Of a DNA stretch of 27,097 nucleotides, positions 2,246-19,971 are shown in pieces; the first letter of the stretch is position 1; each line of letters starts with the position of its first letter. The stretch comes from a virus. A program made the translations under genes and the position numbers. Under the pieces are notes generated by a model. It did not search any database. It saw only the letters and a program-made list of their open reading frames with translations, and was not told where the DNA came from. The stretch covers positions 1-27,097 of the IMG/VR virus record IMGVR_UViG_3300029319_000397, one strand, 5' to 3'.

Positions 2246-2283
2246 ACAAAAAAAATGCCTAGTTAAATTAATAACTAGGCATT
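2246..2283 (-). terminator. Intrinsic terminator ending the 2305-3132 transcription unit
   Basis: A perfect 12-bp inverted repeat (AATGCCTAGTTA at 2254-2265 and its complement at 2272-2283) encloses a 6-nt loop. Read on the minus strand, it is followed at once by a T-run (TTTTTTTTG). It lies about 20 nt after the stop of the gene at 2305-2493, so it should stop that unit before terL. Confidence 0.85.
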
Positions 2284-2304
2284 AAAAGAATTAACTATGT
2301 AAAC

Positions 2305-2493
2305 TTATTCTTTTAATTCTTTAGGATAGTGATTAGGAACATTTCCAAAGTCTTCTAAATACTTTGCAATTCCTTCCCTATCTAATATTTTTATGCCTTC
2401 ACTTGTTAACTTTATAAAGCCCATTTTTTCAAAGTCTTTAATCGCTTGTATAAAGTGTTTATCTTTTTTAAGTATATCTGTAAAAATATCCAT
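2305..2493 (-). CDS. Small unknown protein, last gene of cassette 1
   Basis: A 62-aa protein starting at an ATG preceded by AAAGGTTAAGG. It is charged and probably helical, and the middle segment MGFIKLTSEGIKILDREGI resembles the recognition-helix-and-wing region of small winged-helix proteins. That resemblance is weak and should not be read as a function. It starts 4 nt after the stop of the gene at 2498-2752 and is followed by a strong terminator. It is therefore the promoter-distal member of a three-gene unit that runs 3132, 2752, 2493. No family was recognised. Confidence 0.75.
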   Translation of the reverse strand: MDIFTDILKKDKHFIQAIKDFEKMGFIKLTSEGIKILDREGIAKYLEDFGNVPNHYPKELKE

Positions 2494-2497
2494 AACC

Positions 2498-2752
2498 TTA
2501 ACCTTTCAATATATATAATCTAACTTGATTTAATGCATTACTTACTTCACTCATTAACTCATTAGATTGTTGATTATTAAATTTACTACAATGTTCTACA
2601 ATAATATCTTCTAAAACTTTTGCTACTAATGCATTATTAAGTTTTATTTGTGGATTAGTATTATTAGTAGGTTGTGTAAAATCCCTATTGTTAATCTCAC
2701 TACTAGATATAGTAGTGAGATTAGTGTTTCTAATGTTGTCTAGTAAACTCAT
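2498..2752 (-). CDS. Small unknown protein, middle gene of cassette 1
   Basis: An 84-aa protein whose ATG overlaps the stop of the preceding gene in a TAATG arrangement, which implies translational coupling. The first half is polar and rich in Asn, Thr and Ser (for example SSSEINNRDFTQPTNNTN) and is probably disordered. The second half (about residues 40-84) looks like two amphipathic helices. There is no recognisable domain, signal peptide or membrane segment. Its place inside a unit with its own promoter and terminator suggests an accessory rather than a structural role. Confidence 0.75.
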   Translation of the reverse strand: MSLLDNIRNTNLTTISSSEINNRDFTQPTNNTNPQIKLNNALVAKVLEDIIVEHCSKFNNQQSNELMSEVSNALNQVRLYILKG

Positions 2753-3132
2753 TAGTCATTAACCTTAATGTCTAATTTAATTTCTTTAGACTTACTAGGG
2801 ACTAAACACTCTTTCCATATATTAGGATATTTTTCTTTTAAGAGTTTACTATCGATACGACCATTTAATAAATTGCCGTTTTCATCTCTTTTACTTTCCC
2901 TAATAATTAAGGTTGCAACACTTCCCATATATTTATCTGAAGTAAAAAATATAGTATTTGATTTTTTATCTTCAAATAATTTCAAGACTTGTGGTTTTAG
3001 ATAACCTTCAACCTTCTCTTCGTCTAATCTTTTTTGTTTAGTAGTTGCATAATCAAGAAAGAGTTTTTCTTGCTCTTCACTTAACTCTCTATGAAAGTTA
3101 AGGTCTTTTATAGTTAGTTTTTTTAGTGTCAT
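2752..3132 (-). CDS. Unknown phage protein, first gene of cassette 1
   Basis: A 126-aa protein. I chose the ATG at 3132 because AAGGAAAGG stands at a good distance upstream. An in-frame GTG at 3165 would give 11 more residues but lies inside the conserved TGTGTTAAAC leader and would have no ribosome binding site. The protein is basic. The N-terminal half is helical (ELSEEQEKLFLDYATTKQKRLDEEKVEG). The C-terminal half contains NGRIDSKLLKEKYPNIWKEC, a type of sequence (an Asp/Lys-rich helix before YPxIxKE) that I associate with conserved phage proteins of unknown function. The first gene of a three-gene operon ending at a terminator at 2246-2283. Confidence 0.8.
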   Translation of the reverse strand: MTLKKLTIKDLNFHRELSEEQEKLFLDYATTKQKRLDEEKVEGYLKPQVLKLFEDKKSNTIFFTSDKYMGSVATLIIRESKRDENGNLLNGRIDSKLLKEKYPNIWKECLVPSKSKEIKLDIKVND

Positions 3133-3156
3133 AATTTTTTCCTTTCCTTGTAAAAT

Positions 3157-3200
3157 GTTTAACACAAGTAAATTATATAAAATTTTTTAACAAATTAAAA
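3157..3200 (-). promoter_or_regulatory. Cassette 1 promoter with TGTGTTAAAC start
   Basis: On the minus strand a consensus TATAAT (3177-3172) is followed by 5 nt (TTACT) and then TGTGTTAAAC (3166-3157). The same -10, 5 nt, 10-mer spacing occurs at the two other cassettes. The -35 region is poor (TTTTAA at a 17-nt spacer), but upstream DNA is a run of A and T. The predicted transcript begins in the 10-mer, about 30 nt before the start codon. Confidence 0.65.
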
Positions 3201-3302
3201 GCATTAATTTATATTTTTTTATATTTTTTTATATGGTTGTTCCTGGTGTTGCTGCTTTTTGCTTTCCCTGGTACAGCTGCTGCTGGCGCTTTTCTATAGG
3301 AA

Positions 3303-3351
3303 GGGAAATGGGAAATGTGGGAAACTATGGGAAATGGGAAAATGGCAAACG
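3303..3351 (+). repeat. Cluster of five GGGAAA motifs
   Basis: GGGAAA occurs at 3303, 3310, 3319, 3329 and 3336, followed by GGCAAACG at 3344. Spacings are 7 to 10 nt. The block lies in the gene-free stretch 3201-3470 between the cassette 1 promoter and the cassette 2 terminator. The same hexamer occurs in the paired motifs of the other junction repeats. It may be a set of protein binding sites or a slippage-expanded repeat. Confidence 0.7.
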
Positions 3352-3373
3352 CACACCTCCGTGTTGTCCCCGA

Positions 3374-3448
3374 GGCGCGCGCCCGTGCCAGCTTCTTAAC
3401 TAACTATAATAAAGAAGTTCTTTTTGCTTAAAAACGGCAAACGGCAAA
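3374..3448. repeat. Junction repeat A
   Basis: The copy consists of a 10-bp GC palindrome GGCGCGCGCC (3374-3383), then GTGCCAGC, then TAACTATAAT, and about 40 nt further on the pair ACGGCAAACGGCAA (3434-3447). The same order of parts is found in repeats B, C and D. The GC block stands out in an AT-rich genome. It lies between cassette 1 and cassette 2 and contains no supportable gene. Confidence 0.65.
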
Positions 3449-3467
3449 TTAATTAAATAGAAATACA

Positions 3468-3502
3468 ATTAAAAGAGTTGCTCCTAAATATAAGAGCAAC
3501 TC
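3468..3502 (-). terminator. Terminator of cassette 2
   Basis: A perfect 9-bp stem (GAGTTGCTC at 3475-3483, GAGCAACTC at 3494-3502) with a 10-nt loop is followed, on the minus strand, by TTTTAATTGTATTT. It begins 18 nt after the stop of the gene at 3520-4116. The U-tract is interrupted, so efficiency is uncertain, but position and stem fit an intrinsic terminator. Confidence 0.75.
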
Positions 3503-3519
3503 CATAAACTCAACTAGAA

Positions 3520-4116
3520 CTAACATATCTTAAAACCACCACTAGCTCTACAGAAACGCATAAAGTCTACTACGTTCTCCTCTGAAAAAGGATAGCTTGC
3601 CATATGGTCTAGCATTTTATAAATATCGTCCCATTGGCTTTTGAATGGTTCTGGATAACTGACAGGTGCAATATTTTCATCACCTGTCTTATCTATAACT
3701 ATCTGATGAAGTTCTTTCATTTTTATTCTTAACTTATTATTATGTTCAATCGCTTTTTTATTAACTTCATCATAATGCTTTTGAATTTGTCTAACTCTTG
3801 ACGTCTTGAGTTCTTGCTCCAACCTATCAGCAATTTTCAAGGCAATATCTTCTTCAACTCTATATCCGTCATTGTGATGCCAAGCACTATGGTCTTCTTT
3901 TGGTATAATGCCTCCCATTAAATTTAATACATAATCTGCTAATGGTCTCCACCACCAAACATTATTTCTAAAATAATGCCCAACATTTTCCTTTAAAAAT
4001 TTTTCTCTATCTTTAAAGTATTGTCTTTTTTCTTTGTCTGAAGGTTTGTCCTCCCAATTAATAGAAGGTTCTTTGCTTTTTAATTTTGGATTTAATCCGT
4101 ATAAATCGAATCCCAT
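3520..4116 (-). CDS. Conserved unknown phage/bacterial protein, single gene of cassette 2
   Basis: A 198-aa protein with ATG at 4116 behind a clean AAGGAG. The N-terminus MGFDLYGLNP, the aromatic core RNNVWWWRPLADYV (about 51-64) and the C-terminus YPFSEENVVDFMRFCRASGG are, from memory, hallmarks of a protein found scattered in phages and bacteria with no assigned function. A Trp/His-rich middle (EDHSAWHHNDGY, residues 76-87) could bind metal, but this is speculation. A long charged helix covers about residues 89-135. The gene stands alone between its own promoter (4143-4176) and terminator (3468-3502), which is the classical moron arrangement. Confidence 0.85.
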   Translation of the reverse strand: MGFDLYGLNPKLKSKEPSINWEDKPSDKEKRQYFKDREKFLKENVGHYFRNNVWWWRPLADYVLNLMGGIIPKEDHSAWHHNDGYRVEEDIALKIADRLEQELKTSRVRQIQKHYDEVNKKAIEHNNKLRIKMKELHQIVIDKTGDENIAPVSYPEPFKSQWDDIYKMLDHMASYPFSEENVVDFMRFCRASGGFKIC

Positions 4117-4133
4117 TTTATTCTCCTTTTTAA

Positions 4134-4176
4134 GTTTAACACAATATTATTCTACACTATTATATATACAATGCAA
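4134..4176 (-). promoter_or_regulatory. Cassette 2 promoter with TGTGTTAAAC start
   Basis: Minus-strand TTGCAT (4176-4171), a 16-nt spacer and TAGAAT (4154-4149) are followed by 5 nt (AATAT) and TGTGTTAAAC (4143-4134). A Shine-Dalgarno AAGGAG and the ATG at 4116 follow within 25 nt. Spacing from -10 to 10-mer is identical to that of cassettes 1 and 3. Confidence 0.7.
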
Positions 4177-4205
4177 GAAAAAAATTAATAAGCTCCCGGT
4201 TGTCA

Positions 4206-4284
4206 GCTGGCGACGCGCTGCCAGCCCATTAGACTAAAGTCAGTAACTCCAGCTTTTCCGTAAAAAACGGCAAACGGCAAATTA
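4206..4284. repeat. Junction repeat B
   Basis: The copy contains GCTGGC/GCCAGC arms (4206-4211 and 4220-4225) around GACGCGCT, then CCATTAGACTAAAGTC, then the hairpin TTTTCCGT/ACGG and the pair ACGGCAAACGGCAAATTA (4267-4284). The order of parts matches repeats A, C and D. It sits directly upstream of the cassette 2 promoter. A 61-codon frame starting at a GTG crosses B and part of C, but it looks like a by-product of the repeat and is not called as a gene. Confidence 0.65.
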
Positions 4285-4323
4285 GATCCCGGGGATCGGC
4301 CAGGCAGCCAGATCCAGGACCTG

Positions 4324-4468
4324 AAAAAGATGGGGACCAAAACCCTTAGAAAACGGGGGTTTGGGAAGTGCCATTCCGTGATTTCCACTCGCCACGCGGC
4401 GCGCGCCAGCTCATTAGACTATAATTATAAAAGTGTGGGTTTCCGTAAAAAACGGGAAACGGGAATTA
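4324..4468. repeat. Junction repeat C (about 145-bp full-length copy)
   Basis: From left to right: AAAAAGATGGGGACCAAAA (4324-4342), the 10-bp palindrome GGCGCGCGCC (4398-4407) leading into GCCAGCTCATTAGACTATAAT, then TTTCCGT/ACGGGAAA hairpin sequence and the pair ACGGGAAACGGGAATTA (4452-4468). Repeat D2 has the same three blocks in the same order over nearly the same length. The remainder of this gene-free stretch, 4469-4550, is A/C-rich, and I see no gene or further structure in it. Confidence 0.65.
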
Positions 4469-4550
4469 GAAGACCATAGAAACCACCACACACAAAAGCA
4501 CCACCCCCAACCACACAAGCAATCGAGGGCAGAACAAAACGATGAACGCT

Positions 4551-4589
4551 AAAAAAATATAAAATCCCATATCTACCTACATTTTATAT
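4551..4589 (-). terminator. Probable terminator of cassette 3
   Basis: A 9-bp inverted repeat (ATATAAAAT at 4557-4565, ATTTTATAT at 4581-4589) is followed on the minus strand by a run of seven T. One arm lies in the last codons of the gene at 4573-4896. The stem is entirely A/T, so it is weaker than the other two terminators, but position and T-run are right. Confidence 0.55.
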
Positions 4590-4896
4590 TATACCATAGT
4601 TCCTCGTAATAGTCATCTAGACCTTGAGCGTCATTTCTGTAGTCACAGGTAGCACGATCATTCCACCAGTACCCCTCCACCTGTTGAGTCTTGGTATTGA
4701 TCCAAATGCCTGGACCTCCTGTTGCTACGCACAGACGTGCTCCAAGATAATCTCCTTTATAATCTACTATGTAATTAACATCTAAGATGCGTTCTAATAG
4801 TTCTTCCCAGGTAGAGCCCCCGGCTTCAACCCACGCTGCCTCCTGCTGGCAGATCTCCAGCAACAACTGCTGCCCTGTTTTCTTTGTTTTCTCCAT
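4573..4896 (-). CDS. Conserved unknown protein, single gene of cassette 3
   Basis: A 107-aa acidic protein with ATG at 4896 behind AAGGAG. The N-terminal helix (QQLLLEICQQEAAWVEAGG) is followed by a compact core with GARLCVATGGPGIWINT (about 52-68) and VEGYWW (73-78), and then a C-terminal GLDDYYEELW. I remember this core (RxCVxxGGPxIW, VxGYW, GLDD) from small proteins in phages and bacterial mobile elements without known function. Its DNA is visibly richer in G and C than most neighbours, which suggests arrival from another replicon. It has its own promoter (TTGACA/TATCCT) and a terminator-like hairpin, so it is an independent transcription unit. Confidence 0.85.
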   Translation of the reverse strand: MEKTKKTGQQLLLEICQQEAAWVEAGGSTWEELLERILDVNYIVDYKGDYLGARLCVATGGPGIWINTKTQQVEGYWWNDRATCDYRNDAQGLDDYYEELWYNIKCR

Positions 4897-4912
4897 GTTT
4901 TCTCTCCTTTTT

Positions 4913-4956
4913 GTTTAACACAGGTTCAGGATAACGGCAGCACGCGCAGCTGTCAA
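4913..4956 (-). promoter_or_regulatory. Cassette 3 promoter, near-consensus sigma70
   Basis: Minus-strand TTGACA (4956-4951), a 17-nt spacer and TATCCT (4933-4928) are followed by 5 nt (GAACC) and TGTGTTAAAC (4922-4913), then AAGGAG and the ATG at 4896. This is the best sigma70-like promoter of the three cassettes and anchors the interpretation that the 10-mer marks the transcription start. Confidence 0.8.
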
Positions 4957-4959
4957 CAA

Positions 4960-5104
4960 AAAAAGATGGGGACCAAAAAACACGGAAATCAAGGCTTTGC
5001 GACAATTTGCCCGGGGAAAATTTCCCGCACGCGCCTGGCCCATCCTGTCTAAAGACTTTTAAAAAAACCAGAAATATAAGGTAAAACGGGAAACGGGAAA
5101 CTGG
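4960..5104. repeat. Junction repeat D2 (about 145-bp full-length copy)
   Basis: From left to right: AAAAAGATGGGGACCAAAA (4960-4978, identical to 4324-4342), a perfect GGGAAA-A-TTTCCC palindrome (5014-5026), the GC block GCACGCGCCTGGCCCAT followed by TCTAAAGAC, and the pair ACGGGAAACGGGAAACTGGAAA (5086-5107). Its left end abuts the -35 element of the cassette 3 promoter. No gene is supportable here. Confidence 0.65.
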
Positions 5105-5108
5105 AAAA

Positions 5109-5501
5109 TCAGGTTTCCGTGCAGCGCGCGCCAGCCAGGATCAGGATCTCTTTAACTATAGAGGCCATAGAGCCATTAATCTTTAAACGGGAAACGGGAA
5201 TTACGGAATTTGGCTCACGGATCACGAGAAGTTTGAGCTCTCTCTGCTTAGGTGCCAGATGCAGAATAAAACTTTTGCCACCAGCTTTATGTCTTTTAAG
5301 ATGCCAATTAATTTGGAACTTTGATAAGCCATAATTCTTAGCATCATTACATTTTAATTCTAACCAAAATTCTATGCCGTGCATAACACAGTTAACATCA
5401 GGGATTCCGTTGACTGTAGCAGATTCAATCCTAATGAAATGCCAATGTTTTTCTTTCTTTTGAACTTGGTTAAGGTAAGACCACAATTGTGATTCTTTCA
5501 T
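5109..5501 (-). CDS. VRR-NUC / PD-(D/E)XK endonuclease, possible Holliday-junction resolvase
   Basis: A 130-aa nuclease of the size of phage endonucleases that process branched DNA before packaging. The catalytic signature is visible: NGIPDVN with Asp35 and, after a short hairpin, WLELKC with Glu48 and Lys50. FQINWHLK follows, with the Gln63 typical of VRR-NUC proteins. The ATG at 5501 overlaps the terS stop (ATGA), so the two are coupled, which fits a packaging or recombination role. From about residue 95 onward the codons are those of junction repeat D (5122-5209), including the GCGCGCGCC block next to the stop. The tail from about EPNSVIPVSR to the end may therefore be a repeat-derived extension and not part of the ancestral fold. 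Confidence 0.85.
   Translation of the reverse strand: MKESQLWSYLNQVQKKEKHWHFIRIESATVNGIPDVNCVMHGIEFWLELKCNDAKNYGLSKFQINWHLKRHKAGGKSFILHLAPKQRELKLLVIREPNSVIPVSRLKINGSMASIVKEILILAGARCTET
5122..5209. repeat. Junction repeat D, overlapping the 3' end of the nuclease gene
   Basis: The 12-mer GCGCGCGCCAGC (5124-5135) is identical to 4399-4410 in repeat C. TTTAACTATAG follows, and then the pair ACGGGAAACGGGAATTA (5187-5203). The order of parts is the same as in A, B and C. Unlike them it is translated, forming the last third of the nuclease at 5109-5501. Confidence 0.65.
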
Positions 5502-6022
5502 TCTACTTTTTCTGGTGTAATGTCTATTATATTTTTTGAATCATTGATTTTATTTTCAAGTTCTTTTAGTCTTTGTTCTAATTTTTCTCTGCTCATTCCC
5601 TCTAATGTTGTATGAGCTATCTCTTTTTTGTCAACAAATTGTCCTGCTAACTGACCTGATCTAAATTCTGCATTTATAGCTCCTGTATATTGTCCTTTTT
5701 GTTCAGCTCCATCACGCAACCTATCAAATATTTTATATCTTCTTAGTTTATCTTTTTCGTACTTTGCTGTCTCCTCTGCAAGTTTTATTTCTAGATATCT
5801 AGCAACATGTGGATTCTTATTTGGGTTCAATAATTTACTTGCCATAACCATAGTGGCATCTTTTTTTTCTTCTGAGCCATAACCTGCTTTTATTGCAGCT
5901 TCCACTTGTGATATTTGACCCCATTGACTGACAAGTATTTCAACAAACTTTTTTTGCTTATATGTCAAGTCATCAATTGTCTTTAATATATTTTTTTTCG
6001 CTGGCATATCATTATTATACAC
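5498..6022 (-). CDS. terS: Terminase small subunit
   Basis: A 174-aa protein that should recognise the packaging site and load TerL. The N-terminal LTYKQKKFVEILVSQ and SQVEAAIKAGYGSEEKKDATMVMASKLLN form the helix-turn-helix region typical of Terminase_2 family small subunits. LNPNKNPHVARYLEIKLAE and a charged, probably coiled C-terminal helix (MSREKLEQRLKELENKI) for oligomerisation follow. I keep the GTG at 6022 because GAGG stands 5 nt upstream. The ATG at 6007 gives a protein five residues shorter. It is followed by the nuclease with a 4-nt overlap. About 300 nt of leader separate it from a promoter-like site at 6310-6359. Confidence 0.9.
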   Translation of the reverse strand: MYNNDMPAKKNILKTIDDLTYKQKKFVEILVSQWGQISQVEAAIKAGYGSEEKKDATMVMASKLLNPNKNPHVARYLEIKLAEETAKYEKDKLRRYKIFDRLRDGAEQKGQYTGAINAEFRSGQLAGQFVDKKEIAHTTLEGMSREKLEQRLKELENKINDSKNIIDITPEKVE

Positions 6023-6101
6023 ACATACCTCTTACTTAGAACTTTTTTTTTAAAAAAAAATTGTATTTTTTGCCCATAAGGACTAAGGTCTATTGTTATT
6101 T

Positions 6102-6189
6102 TTCCTACTTTTTGGGAAAAATTCCTAGTTTTTTCCTAAAACTTTTTCTCTGTAATACTATGTTTTCTGCTACTTTTCCTAGTTTCCTA
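6102..6189. repeat. AT-rich leader with five TTCCTA repeats upstream of terS
   Basis: TTCCTA occurs at 6102, 6122, 6133, 6176 and 6184. Two of the neighbourhoods form an imperfect direct repeat (TTCCTAGTTT, CCTAAAACTTTT, CTATGTT). GGAA-AAA-TTCC is palindromic at 6115-6125. The whole stretch 6023-6309 has long A and T runs and no gene I can support. It could be an operator array, an origin-like iteron region or a packaging-site candidate because it precedes terS. Confidence 0.5.
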
Positions 6190-6309
6190 AAACTTTTGCT
6201 ATGTTCTGTGTATTTTTAAAAAAAAGTTGTAAGGGCTGGGTATATGAAAATTTTGGGAAAATGGAAAAAAGATGTTGTATTATGACAGTTTTTAGGATAC
6301 AAGTGTTGT

Positions 6310-6359
6310 GTAGGGTAAAGTTGTTTAACACACCATTCTACCTTTCCCCTTTACCCTAC
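6310..6359 (-). promoter_or_regulatory. Promoter-like site framed by an 11-bp inverted repeat
   Basis: A perfect inverted repeat (GTAGGGTAAAG at 6310-6320, its complement at 6349-6359) encloses, on the minus strand, TAGAAT (6340-6335), 2 nt and TGTGTTAAAC (6332-6323). This is the fourth copy of the 10-mer that marks the cassette starts, but with 2 nt instead of 5 nt after the -10 and no good -35. The arrangement could be a repressor operator over the terS promoter or an RNA hairpin at the end of the upstream gene, whose stop codon lies in the right arm. Confidence 0.5.
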
Positions 6360-9060: not shown

Positions 9061-9316
9061 CTGTGACCTCCATCTTTGCATCTATCTCTTGAAATACTAA
9101 AGCTCTTGCTGTATTCATACCAAACAAAGGATTTATTAAACCATTTGAAGGATCAACAATTTCTATCTTTTTTAACTCATCCATTTTTTCCTCCAGGTCC
9201 AGGTCACTTGTCGGTTGACCACCATAATCATAATGATGTGTTTCGTGTAAAATATCATCTATTCTTTTTACTATATTATGAAAGTGTTTACTTTTACTTC
9301 TAAATTTATATTGCAT
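9041..9316 (-). CDS. Small acidic unknown protein
   Basis: A 91-aa protein whose ATG lies within the last codons of the upstream gene (11-nt overlap) and whose 3' end overlaps the next gene by 20 nt. The N-terminus is basic and His-rich (YKFRSKSKHFHNIVKRIDDILHETHHYDYGG). The rest is acidic (SDLDLEEKMDELKK, EVTDDEGNI). The block INPLFGMNTARALVFQEID is the most conserved-looking part. I do not recognise a family. Confidence 0.7.
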   Translation of the reverse strand: MQYKFRSKSKHFHNIVKRIDDILHETHHYDYGGQPTSDLDLEEKMDELKKIEIVDPSNGLINPLFGMNTARALVFQEIDAKMEVTDDEGNI

Positions 9317-9620
9317 ACTTTGCTCCTTGTGCTGTCGTTAAATTTTTTTCGTTAGTTTCATAATATACTATATCATTACGTTTGTAATTCTCGACTAGCA
9401 CAGGTTCGTTTACTAATACACCCATACCTTTTTTCTGGTTTCCCTGAAGTATCTTCACCCACATTTTTTCTTTGGCTATTTTATTTTTACCTTGCTCTTC
9501 AATAAAATAACAATACACGTGATATTTGTCATACTTTTCTTGCTCTTTAATTTTAAAATACAACTCTTCTCCGTGTTCTTCACAGGTAAATACTACATTT
9601 TCTTTTGGTTCTTTCATCAT
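9306..9620 (-). CDS. DUF2314-like phage protein
   Basis: A 104-aa protein starting at ATG 9620 behind AAAGGATGG. The segment EKMWVKILQGNQKKGMGVLVNEPVLVENYKRNDIVYYE matches the DUF2314 pattern as I remember it: a MWV strand, a Gly-hydrophobic-Asn-Glu-Pro turn, then a hydrophobic stretch ending in an xGD/ND-V motif. The domain is a small beta-rich fold of unknown function. It is the first gene of the minus-strand small-gene operon and has a promoter-like TTGACT/CATAAT upstream. Confidence 0.75.
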   Translation of the reverse strand: MMKEPKENVVFTCEEHGEELYFKIKEQEKYDKYHVYCYFIEEQGKNKIAKEKMWVKILQGNQKKGMGVLVNEPVLVENYKRNDIVYYETNEKNLTTAQGAKYAI

Positions 9621-19644: not shown

Positions 19645-19971
19645 TCAACTATCTTTTTTATTTTTAGTTAATGTAAATCCCATTTTTTTTGCAGCTGTTC
19701 TTAACTTAGACAAAGTCATATTACCTGGTGCACCAGATAATGCTTTTCTTCTTTCAATAAAAGCTGAGTCTTTTGCTTTTATCATTTTACCAGCTTTAGC
19801 GTAGCTTTTGGTTCCCATCATTTTACCAGCTTTAGCATAACTCTTAGTACCCATCATTTTACCAGCTTTAGCATAACTCTTAGTTCCCATCATTTTACCA
19901 GCTTTAGCGTAGCTTTTGGTTCCCATACCACCTACTTTTTTCTTTATAGGTTTTTTCATAGGTTTCTTCAT
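19645..19971 (-). CDS. Lysine-rich basic protein with four 12-aa repeats
   Basis: A 108-aa protein, ATG at 19971 behind AAGGAG. It begins MKKPMKKPIKKKVGG, then four exact copies of MGTKSYAKAGKM (residues 16-63), then KAKDSAFIERRKALSG and a helical LSKLRTAAKKMGFTLTKNKK. There are almost no acidic residues in the first 65 positions. The composition resembles histone-H1-like or DNA-condensing proteins, so a role as internal DNA-binding head protein or in host nucleoid binding is plausible but inferred. It lies 2 nt after a strongly acidic protein, and its ribosome binding site includes that gene's stop codon. Confidence 0.85.
   Translation of the reverse strand: MKKPMKKPIKKKVGGMGTKSYAKAGKMMGTKSYAKAGKMMGTKSYAKAGKMMGTKSYAKAGKMIKAKDSAFIERRKALSGAPGNMTLSKLRTAAKKMGFTLTKNKKDS
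19783..19926 (-). repeat. Four tandem 36-bp repeats within the basic protein gene
   Basis: Units are at 19783-19818, 19819-19854, 19855-19890 and 19891-19926. The two outer units are identical at DNA level. The two inner units differ from each other by one base and from the outer units by four synonymous bases. All encode the same 12 residues. The A-B-B'-A order suggests repeat expansion by unequal exchange under protein-level selection. Confidence 0.95.

Follow-up and report, generated by a model that had tools for sequence, protein, structure and literature searches.

A cassette array between the terminase genes of an HTVC023P-type pelagiphage, with junction repeats related to the 3' end of a resolvase-like gene

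The cassette array between terS and terL

The window analyzed here is the whole 27,097-base virus record IMGVR_UViG_3300029319_000397, which contains an array of small gene cassettes on the minus strand between the terminase genes terS and terL. By sequence, the DNA that joins these cassettes shares homology with the 3' end of a resolvase-like gene belonging to the array itself, in a form (dialect) that differs between phage lineages. The window was assigned to the HTVC023P-type pelagiphages, a SAR11 phage group, because its TerL shares 74% amino acid identity with TerL of HTVC023P and approximately 61% with those of 023Pt_psg01 and HTVC027P. HTVC023P-type phages have been reported as the most abundant known group of SAR11-infecting phages (PMC12753301). 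The left border of the array is terS (5498–6007, minus; PHROG terS, E = 3e-5), and the right border in transcription order is terL (610–2082, minus; PHROG terL, E = 3e-115). In the direction of transcription, the order is a start motif at 6323–6331, terS, the resolvase-like nuclease gene (hereafter VRR), cassettes C, B, and A, and terL, and the arrangement of terS, array, and terL is that of the type phages (HTVC023P). For comparison, 80 TerL relatives, 7 cassette C relatives, and 80 resolvase relatives were collected and labelled L001 onward; the genome pairs and loci compared are not mutually independent.

An earlier note on this DNA had described three minus-strand units between the terminase genes, each starting with a -10-like element and a common TGTGTTAAAC and separated by GC-rich repeats, and this layout was confirmed. 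The motif GTGTTAAAC occurs exactly four times in the 27 kb (3157, 4134, 4913, and 6323) against 0.44 copies expected, and four copies were reached in none of 100 shuffles. Three copies lie at the cassette starts, approximately 6 nt past the -10 elements TATAAT (3172–3177), TAGAAT (4149–4154), and TATCCT (4928–4933). Therefore, its first base probably coincides with the transcript +1 or lies close to it. The cassette A leader (3157–3177, minus) comprises its -10 element and the motif at 3157–3165. The leaders of cassettes B (4134–4176, minus) and C (4913–4956, minus) also include an upstream hexamer, as TTGCAT-N16-TAGAAT (4149–4176) with the motif at 4134–4142 and TTGACA-N17-TATCCT (4928–4956) with the motif at 4913–4921. 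Predicted promoters with a -10 element and start motif were thus found at three of three cassette starts. The fourth motif (6323–6331, minus), which the earlier note had not listed, lies upstream of terS. There it opens a leader of approximately 300 nt without a clear open reading frame (ORF) (6023–6331).

The same note had named three terminators, two of which proved good. Cassette A ends in a 12-pair hairpin with a T-run (2254–2283, minus; -16.5 kcal/mol), and cassette B in a 13-pair hairpin (3474–3503, minus; -19.3 kcal/mol). The third, at 4551–4589, is a weak A/T-only hairpin of -4.5 kcal/mol; the best terminator-like hairpin past cassette C lies at 4501–4532 (minus; -20.8 kcal/mol). As to the proposed moron layout, the predicted promoter of each unit and the variable presence of units among relatives hold, with strong terminators in A and B and a weak or alternative one in C.

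Junction repeats and the resolvase-like gene

VRR (5109–5501, minus) stands at the head of the array and encodes a Holliday-junction-resolvase-like PD-(D/E)XK protein of 130 aa. Its AlphaFold model has a pLDDT of 92.6, and a Foldseek search with this model returned Hjc, RecU, and VRR-NUC structures, with Hjc as the best (E = 4e-5). A profile match to the phage VRR-NUC 4qbo (E = 0.005) was also obtained, and the catalytic pattern E3, D35, E48, and K50 (E/D/ExK) is conserved. In modelled fold and catalytic residues, VRR has what characterizes an Hjc/VRR-NUC PD-(D/E)XK resolvase, and its activity is predicted on this basis. Homologues in Stenotrophomonas and Achromobacter phages have nucleotide-metabolism genes as neighbors and lie outside any terS-terL array; therefore, judged from gene position, the link to an array does not appear general to this nuclease family.

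Over 80–100 bp, the junction repeats share homology with the VRR 3' end, invariably on the same strand. The coding sequence of VRR extends with its 3' end into the first junction, an overlap that the earlier note had not noticed. The last 110 nt of the gene (5113–5222, minus; twin sequence at 5185–5200) are themselves of the repeat type, and the segment that they encode forms a strand (99–107) and the C-terminal helix (112–128) of the model. Downstream in transcription order, the J3 unit (5026–5105, minus; nhmmer E = 2.8e-5; twin at 5084–5099) and the first J2 unit (4389–4475, minus; E = 1.1e-6, model positions 13–108; twin at 4450–4465) are homologues of the VRR 3' end. The second J2 unit (4265–4281, minus), left of B, carries the twin TTTGCCGTTTGCCGTTT. 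The J1 unit (3372–3448, minus) matched the 3'-end model weakly (E = 0.11) and holds the exact twin TTTGCCGTTTGCCGTTT at 3432–3448, and a degenerate repeat, TTTCCCATTTCCCATAGTTTCCC (3319–3341, minus), lies ahead of cassette A. Within the window, AAACGGSAAACGGSAA has five perfect copies and one copy with one mismatch, against 0.6 expected within three mismatches, and GGCGCGCGCCAGC with its near matches has six copies against 0.23 expected. The GC content of the junctions is 0.45–0.55 versus approximately 0.33 genome-wide. In a search of 2.9 million viral contigs, the 19-mer at the twin 4265–4281 was found only in four close relatives, twice in each.

This homology was demonstrated across lineages. 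Using 30 second-order Markov sequences as nulls, with a hit defined as exceeding every null, 9-mers from the last 140 nt of VRR recurred remotely in the array in 27 of 31 genomes. In the same assay, the counts were 1/31 (TerL), 3/27 (TerS), 1/17 (B), 2/17 (A2), 0/9 (f4 family), and 20/201 (all other genes). Among held-out loci, which had not been used in forming the idea, strong tail recurrence was observed for 16 of 60 VRR genes and 14 of 578 control ORFs. An nhmmer profile of the window-lineage VRR 3' end matched junction units over nearly its whole length, all on the VRR strand (L005, E = 1.3e-7; L010, E = 1.5e-5). In five other lineages, with the dialects CCCGTT, CTCGTT, CCATAA, TCTCTACC, and GTCCCG, all 49 matches were on the VRR strand, a few of them being VRR tails themselves. 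Each lineage has its own repeat dialect, common to the resolvase tail and the junctions. The HTVC027P repeats (dialect GCTTGAA) are also oriented like VRR, even though the genes that they flank, gp33 and gp34, are on the opposite strand.

Several units are closer to the VRR 3' end of another phage than to their own. The unit at 1403 of L005 matches the L011 VRR end at 23 of 25 bases with a score of 40, compared to 14 for its own VRR and at most 22 for shuffles. This would be expected if old 3' ends had been displaced. No published description of a link between a resolvase tail and such repeats was found; because the search missed most subscription papers, this is weak evidence.

As candidates for structured RNA, the units gave no Rfam match, and on folding most were no better than shuffles (z near -1), although some do form terminators (L047 and L072). 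A matched pair of repeats for each cassette is not claimed: in five close genomes, GCCGTTT twins stand exactly on either side of B, but in their remaining sequence these units resemble each other more across J2 than across B. In L084, a phage 99.4% identical to the window, a 67 bp deletion near position 694 (window 4343–4409) removes the GC-rich half of a single junction unit and amounts to a natural knock-out of that copy.

Variation and cargo of the slot

The expectation that the array is a modular, variable cassette island was borne out, as relatives differ in cassette number, genes, and order within the same slot. The terS-terL interval ranges from 2.6 to 7.9 kb, and its gene content and order vary. 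A3 follows A2 in the window as the final gene ahead of terL but is located ahead of B in L046, L047, and L074. In L053 and HTVC023P, B comes before VRR; elsewhere, it comes after. Across 142 genome pairs having both borders, which are not independent, 62 clean large indels were counted in 162 kb of aligned array versus 14 in 304 kb outside, an 8.3-fold higher density. Cassette presence thus differs between relatives while the flanks are conserved. Among the closest relatives (L001, L085, and L087), the noncoding junctions are approximately as conserved as the genes.

Exchange of B between lineages is shown by its tree, which conflicts with that of TerL. The TerL tree places the window with L002–L014 (support 98/99), and the B tree places it with L047, L071, and L074 (96/93); the TerL grouping imposed on B was rejected in the approximately unbiased (AU) test (p = 0.017). 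The DNA flanking B in the window nevertheless follows the window lineage in its leader and its repeat dialect of 7 nt, rather than L047, in which the dialect is of 6 nt. Furthermore, leaders are common to different genes within each lineage: GTGTTAAACA in the window lineage, TATATAATAGAGGTGTTAACAATTTGTATATTAACCTTTATATAGGAG in L003 and L010, a AACAAAACGGAG-like sequence in L047, and ACTAACAAA in HTVC023P.

The proposal that the repeats allow cassettes to be swapped stood in part. Unit copy number does change: L003 has two units after VRR and L010 and L011 have one, with a 42–45 bp overlap at the breakpoint. L008 has an extra 82 bp or so directly past VRR compared to L005. A gene of L061 (4356–4706) lies between two terminator copies of approximately 35 bp; in L132, the gene is absent and one terminator is present (L061 4290–4830 versus L132 9640–9760). 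Between L009 and L010, the genes of one cassette are replaced exactly from the leader or ATG on. Breakpoints thus fall at a duplicated terminator (L061/L132), at a leader (L009/L010), or at gene ends. However, many clean gene indels break outside the GC-rich units. The comparison of relatives from terS to terL agreed in the number and content of cassettes and only partly in breakpoints within repeats. Recombination at repeats is supported by the L003, L008, and L061/L132 sequences, and the gene-end breakpoints, together with the unit deletions of L004 and L084 described below, suggest that it is not the sole route.

Cassette A encodes A1 (2752–3132, minus; 126 aa, family f4 with 16 array members), A2 (2498–2752, minus; 84 aa), and A3 (2305–2493, minus; 62 aa, family f7), a conserved ORF that in L047-type phages belongs to another cassette. 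A2 belongs to f2, the most widespread cargo family with 32 array members and no database family. Cassette B encodes the 198-aa protein B (3520–4116, minus; family f3), whose AF2 model is a confident fold (pLDDT 92.5) that had no PDB match on structure search. Cassette C encodes the 107-aa protein C (4573–4896, minus; family f54), with a higher GC content; among terL relatives C is confined to the closest kin of the window, and partial homologues (42–54%) occur in Vibrio and roseobacter phages. Differences from L087 fall mostly in the third codon position (3/0/15 in C, 10/6/21 in B, and 2/0/9 in A1); therefore, these ORFs are real genes under purifying selection.

The suggestion that the cargo serves counter-defence gained support from sister arrays and none from the window itself, whose cargo had no above-chance match in Pfam or PHROGs and none in NCBIfam or PADLOC. 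Sister arrays carry an ArdC-family anti-restriction gene (L061) and a Mom-family DNA modification gene (L025), and because both are known counter-restriction families, they argue for a counter-defence island. Other cargo includes GP88-family proteins (L024, HTVC023P, and HTVC027P gp33) and DUF2314 (L009). The ArdC gene of L061 occupies 3241–4119, with tandem CCATAA repeats on either side of its terminator. The Mom-family gene (PF25680), just upstream of terL in L019, L020, L025, and L029, is cleanly present or absent among close relatives (463 bp, 3 bp overlap).

In the early region of the window, a gene at 9306–9620 (minus) shares 41–46% identity with family f17 (DUF2314), which in L003, L009, L010, and L037 is array cargo located behind B. 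This likeness suggests movement of genes between the array and the remaining genome. An ORF with four tandem KMMGTKSYAKAG repeats was also observed at 19645–19971 (minus).

RNA-seq of HTVC027P placed gp30, gp33, and gp34 in two extra temporal clusters outside the early, middle, and late classes (PMC12753301). All three genes lie between terS (gp29) and terL (gp40), and their off-schedule expression fits self-contained units in this slot.

Interpretation of the array

The modular-platform view of the earlier note is mostly right. With a probability of roughly 0.6, we interpret the array as an island of counter-defence genes in HTVC023P-type pelagiphages, a shuffling platform resembling that of T4 and anchored on the resolvase-like gene. 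Each cassette would be an autonomous transcription unit, with a host-sigma-type promoter, a lineage start sequence (TGTTAAACA in the window) at or near +1, a ribosome binding site, one to three genes, and usually a terminator. The cassettes are separated by one or two units of approximately 80–100 bp, partial copies of the resolvase-like gene 3' end. During co-infection, homologous or annealing recombination by the phage between repeated leaders, terminators, and resolvase-tail units would most likely add, remove, or swap cassettes. The resolvase 3' end would act as the anchor that incoming DNA replaces, and displaced old 3' ends would move downstream to become junction repeats; the resolvase protein itself may also take part.

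Several observations weigh against this interpretation. Approximately half of the held-out VRR genes have no remote tail copies, and none were found in L017, L025, L045, L069, L078, and L081. Many gene indels break at start/stop overlaps or leaders with 2–15 bp of homology, and f24, f17, and the Mom-family gene were gained or lost at start and stop codons with 3–7 bp overlap; therefore, micro-homology recombination alone may suffice. Comparison of near-identical genomes showed no whole-cassette gain or loss broken inside VRR-tail units, and the unit deletions of 54–67 bp in L004 and L084 have no clear long repeat at their ends. A polarity in which the variable slot lies close to VRR was considered and dropped, as it fits the window lineage and fails in the L047 lineage.

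These small overlaps at start and stop codons are what an ordinary moron hotspot would produce, in which terS-terL insertions arise by illegitimate or short-homology recombination and are tolerated. The repeats would then be homogenized regulatory DNA, as in the T4 cassettes for which PMC4503421 gives a precedent, and the VRR 3' end would be overwritten as a neighbor of a junction; the units that form terminators in L047 and L072 agree with this. However, B, C, and A also border junctions and keep their own ends and terminators without sharing repeats (B 1/17, f4 0/9), the VRR tail is modelled with confidence within the predicted fold, and most units do not fold as RNA. In addition, the HTVC027P repeats follow VRR despite the reversed gp33 and gp34. 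We therefore think such a hotspot possible but unlikely. An undescribed phage cassette-capture system is a tentative idea that we would rather doubt: the resolvase 3' end would be its attachment site, each captured cassette would bring a new 3' end and push the old one downstream, the nuclease and phage recombination would resolve the exchange, and nuclease and repeats would co-evolve in dialects.

A selfish system like that of RAYT transposases and their repetitive extragenic palindromic (REP) sequences, in which a VRR-like nuclease propagates cognate repeats and the cassettes are passengers, would account for the dialect common to the nuclease gene and repeats, their fixed orientation, and their near confinement to the array. 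It seems quite improbable, since Hjc/VRR-NUC enzymes are structure-specific rather than sequence-specific (PMC9635880, and general knowledge) and the rest of the genome is free of repeat spread. Packaging (pac/cos) or replication-origin sites for terminase binding could be expected between terS and terL as several GC-rich direct repeats, but the copy number tracks cassette number and the repeats are homologous with the VRR 3' end rather than with terS. Moreover, units are lost between near-identical genomes (L084 and L004) and follow VRR when it moves within the array (HTVC023P), which makes this function very improbable.

Among known systems, the array appears by analogy to work like the shuffling of T4 promoter-early stem-loop (PeSL) cassettes, without fully fitting that definition. 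According to PMC4503421, which cites Arbiol 2010 and Comeau 2014, the small genes of a hyperplastic region lie between repeated promoter and terminator motifs, and these motifs are proposed to drive gene shuffling through recombination. A repeated leader between small genes is likewise present here, but a repeated stem-loop is lacking in most units. Compared with that account of PeSLs, the array differs in its junction unit, a partial copy of the resolvase 3' end, in its lineage dialects, and in its single terS-terL slot. The start-associated sequences (SAS) and extended SAS (ESAS) of cluster K mycobacteriophages are also short motifs just upstream of many genes in one orientation, with an ESAS consensus that varies by subcluster (PMC3203893). 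In contrast, the array motif is different, is located at the presumed transcript start after the -10 element, and, apart from the copy at terS, is associated with cassette starts. Morons (Hendrix; PMC6316719) are self-contained transcription units added to phage genomes that vary between relatives; those of the array, by contrast, are in tandem, with common leaders and junction DNA, and are linked to a resolvase gene.

The array also shares features with bacterial islands. Staphylococcal cassette chromosome (SCC) elements at the rlmH 3' end and islands at tRNA 3' ends leave end copies as direct repeats between modules upon insertion. Gene 3'-end copies recur between modules of the array as well, but the cassettes showed no integrase or recombinase gene, and the target gene itself encodes a predicted DNA-junction nuclease. 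Integron arrays are linear series of exchangeable cassettes with recurring boundary DNA, which the array resembles. Unlike integrons, its cassettes have predicted promoters of their own, most units have no stable fold, and no integrase (IntI) was found among the array ORFs.

Most accessory genes of HTVC023P-type phages have no known function, and a repeat-bounded acquisition slot would show where their counter-defence genes sit. It directly links a DNA-junction resolvase, as predicted, to the repeats that separate the cassettes. Furthermore, the slot offers a testable mechanism for fast gene exchange in virulent phages without integrases.

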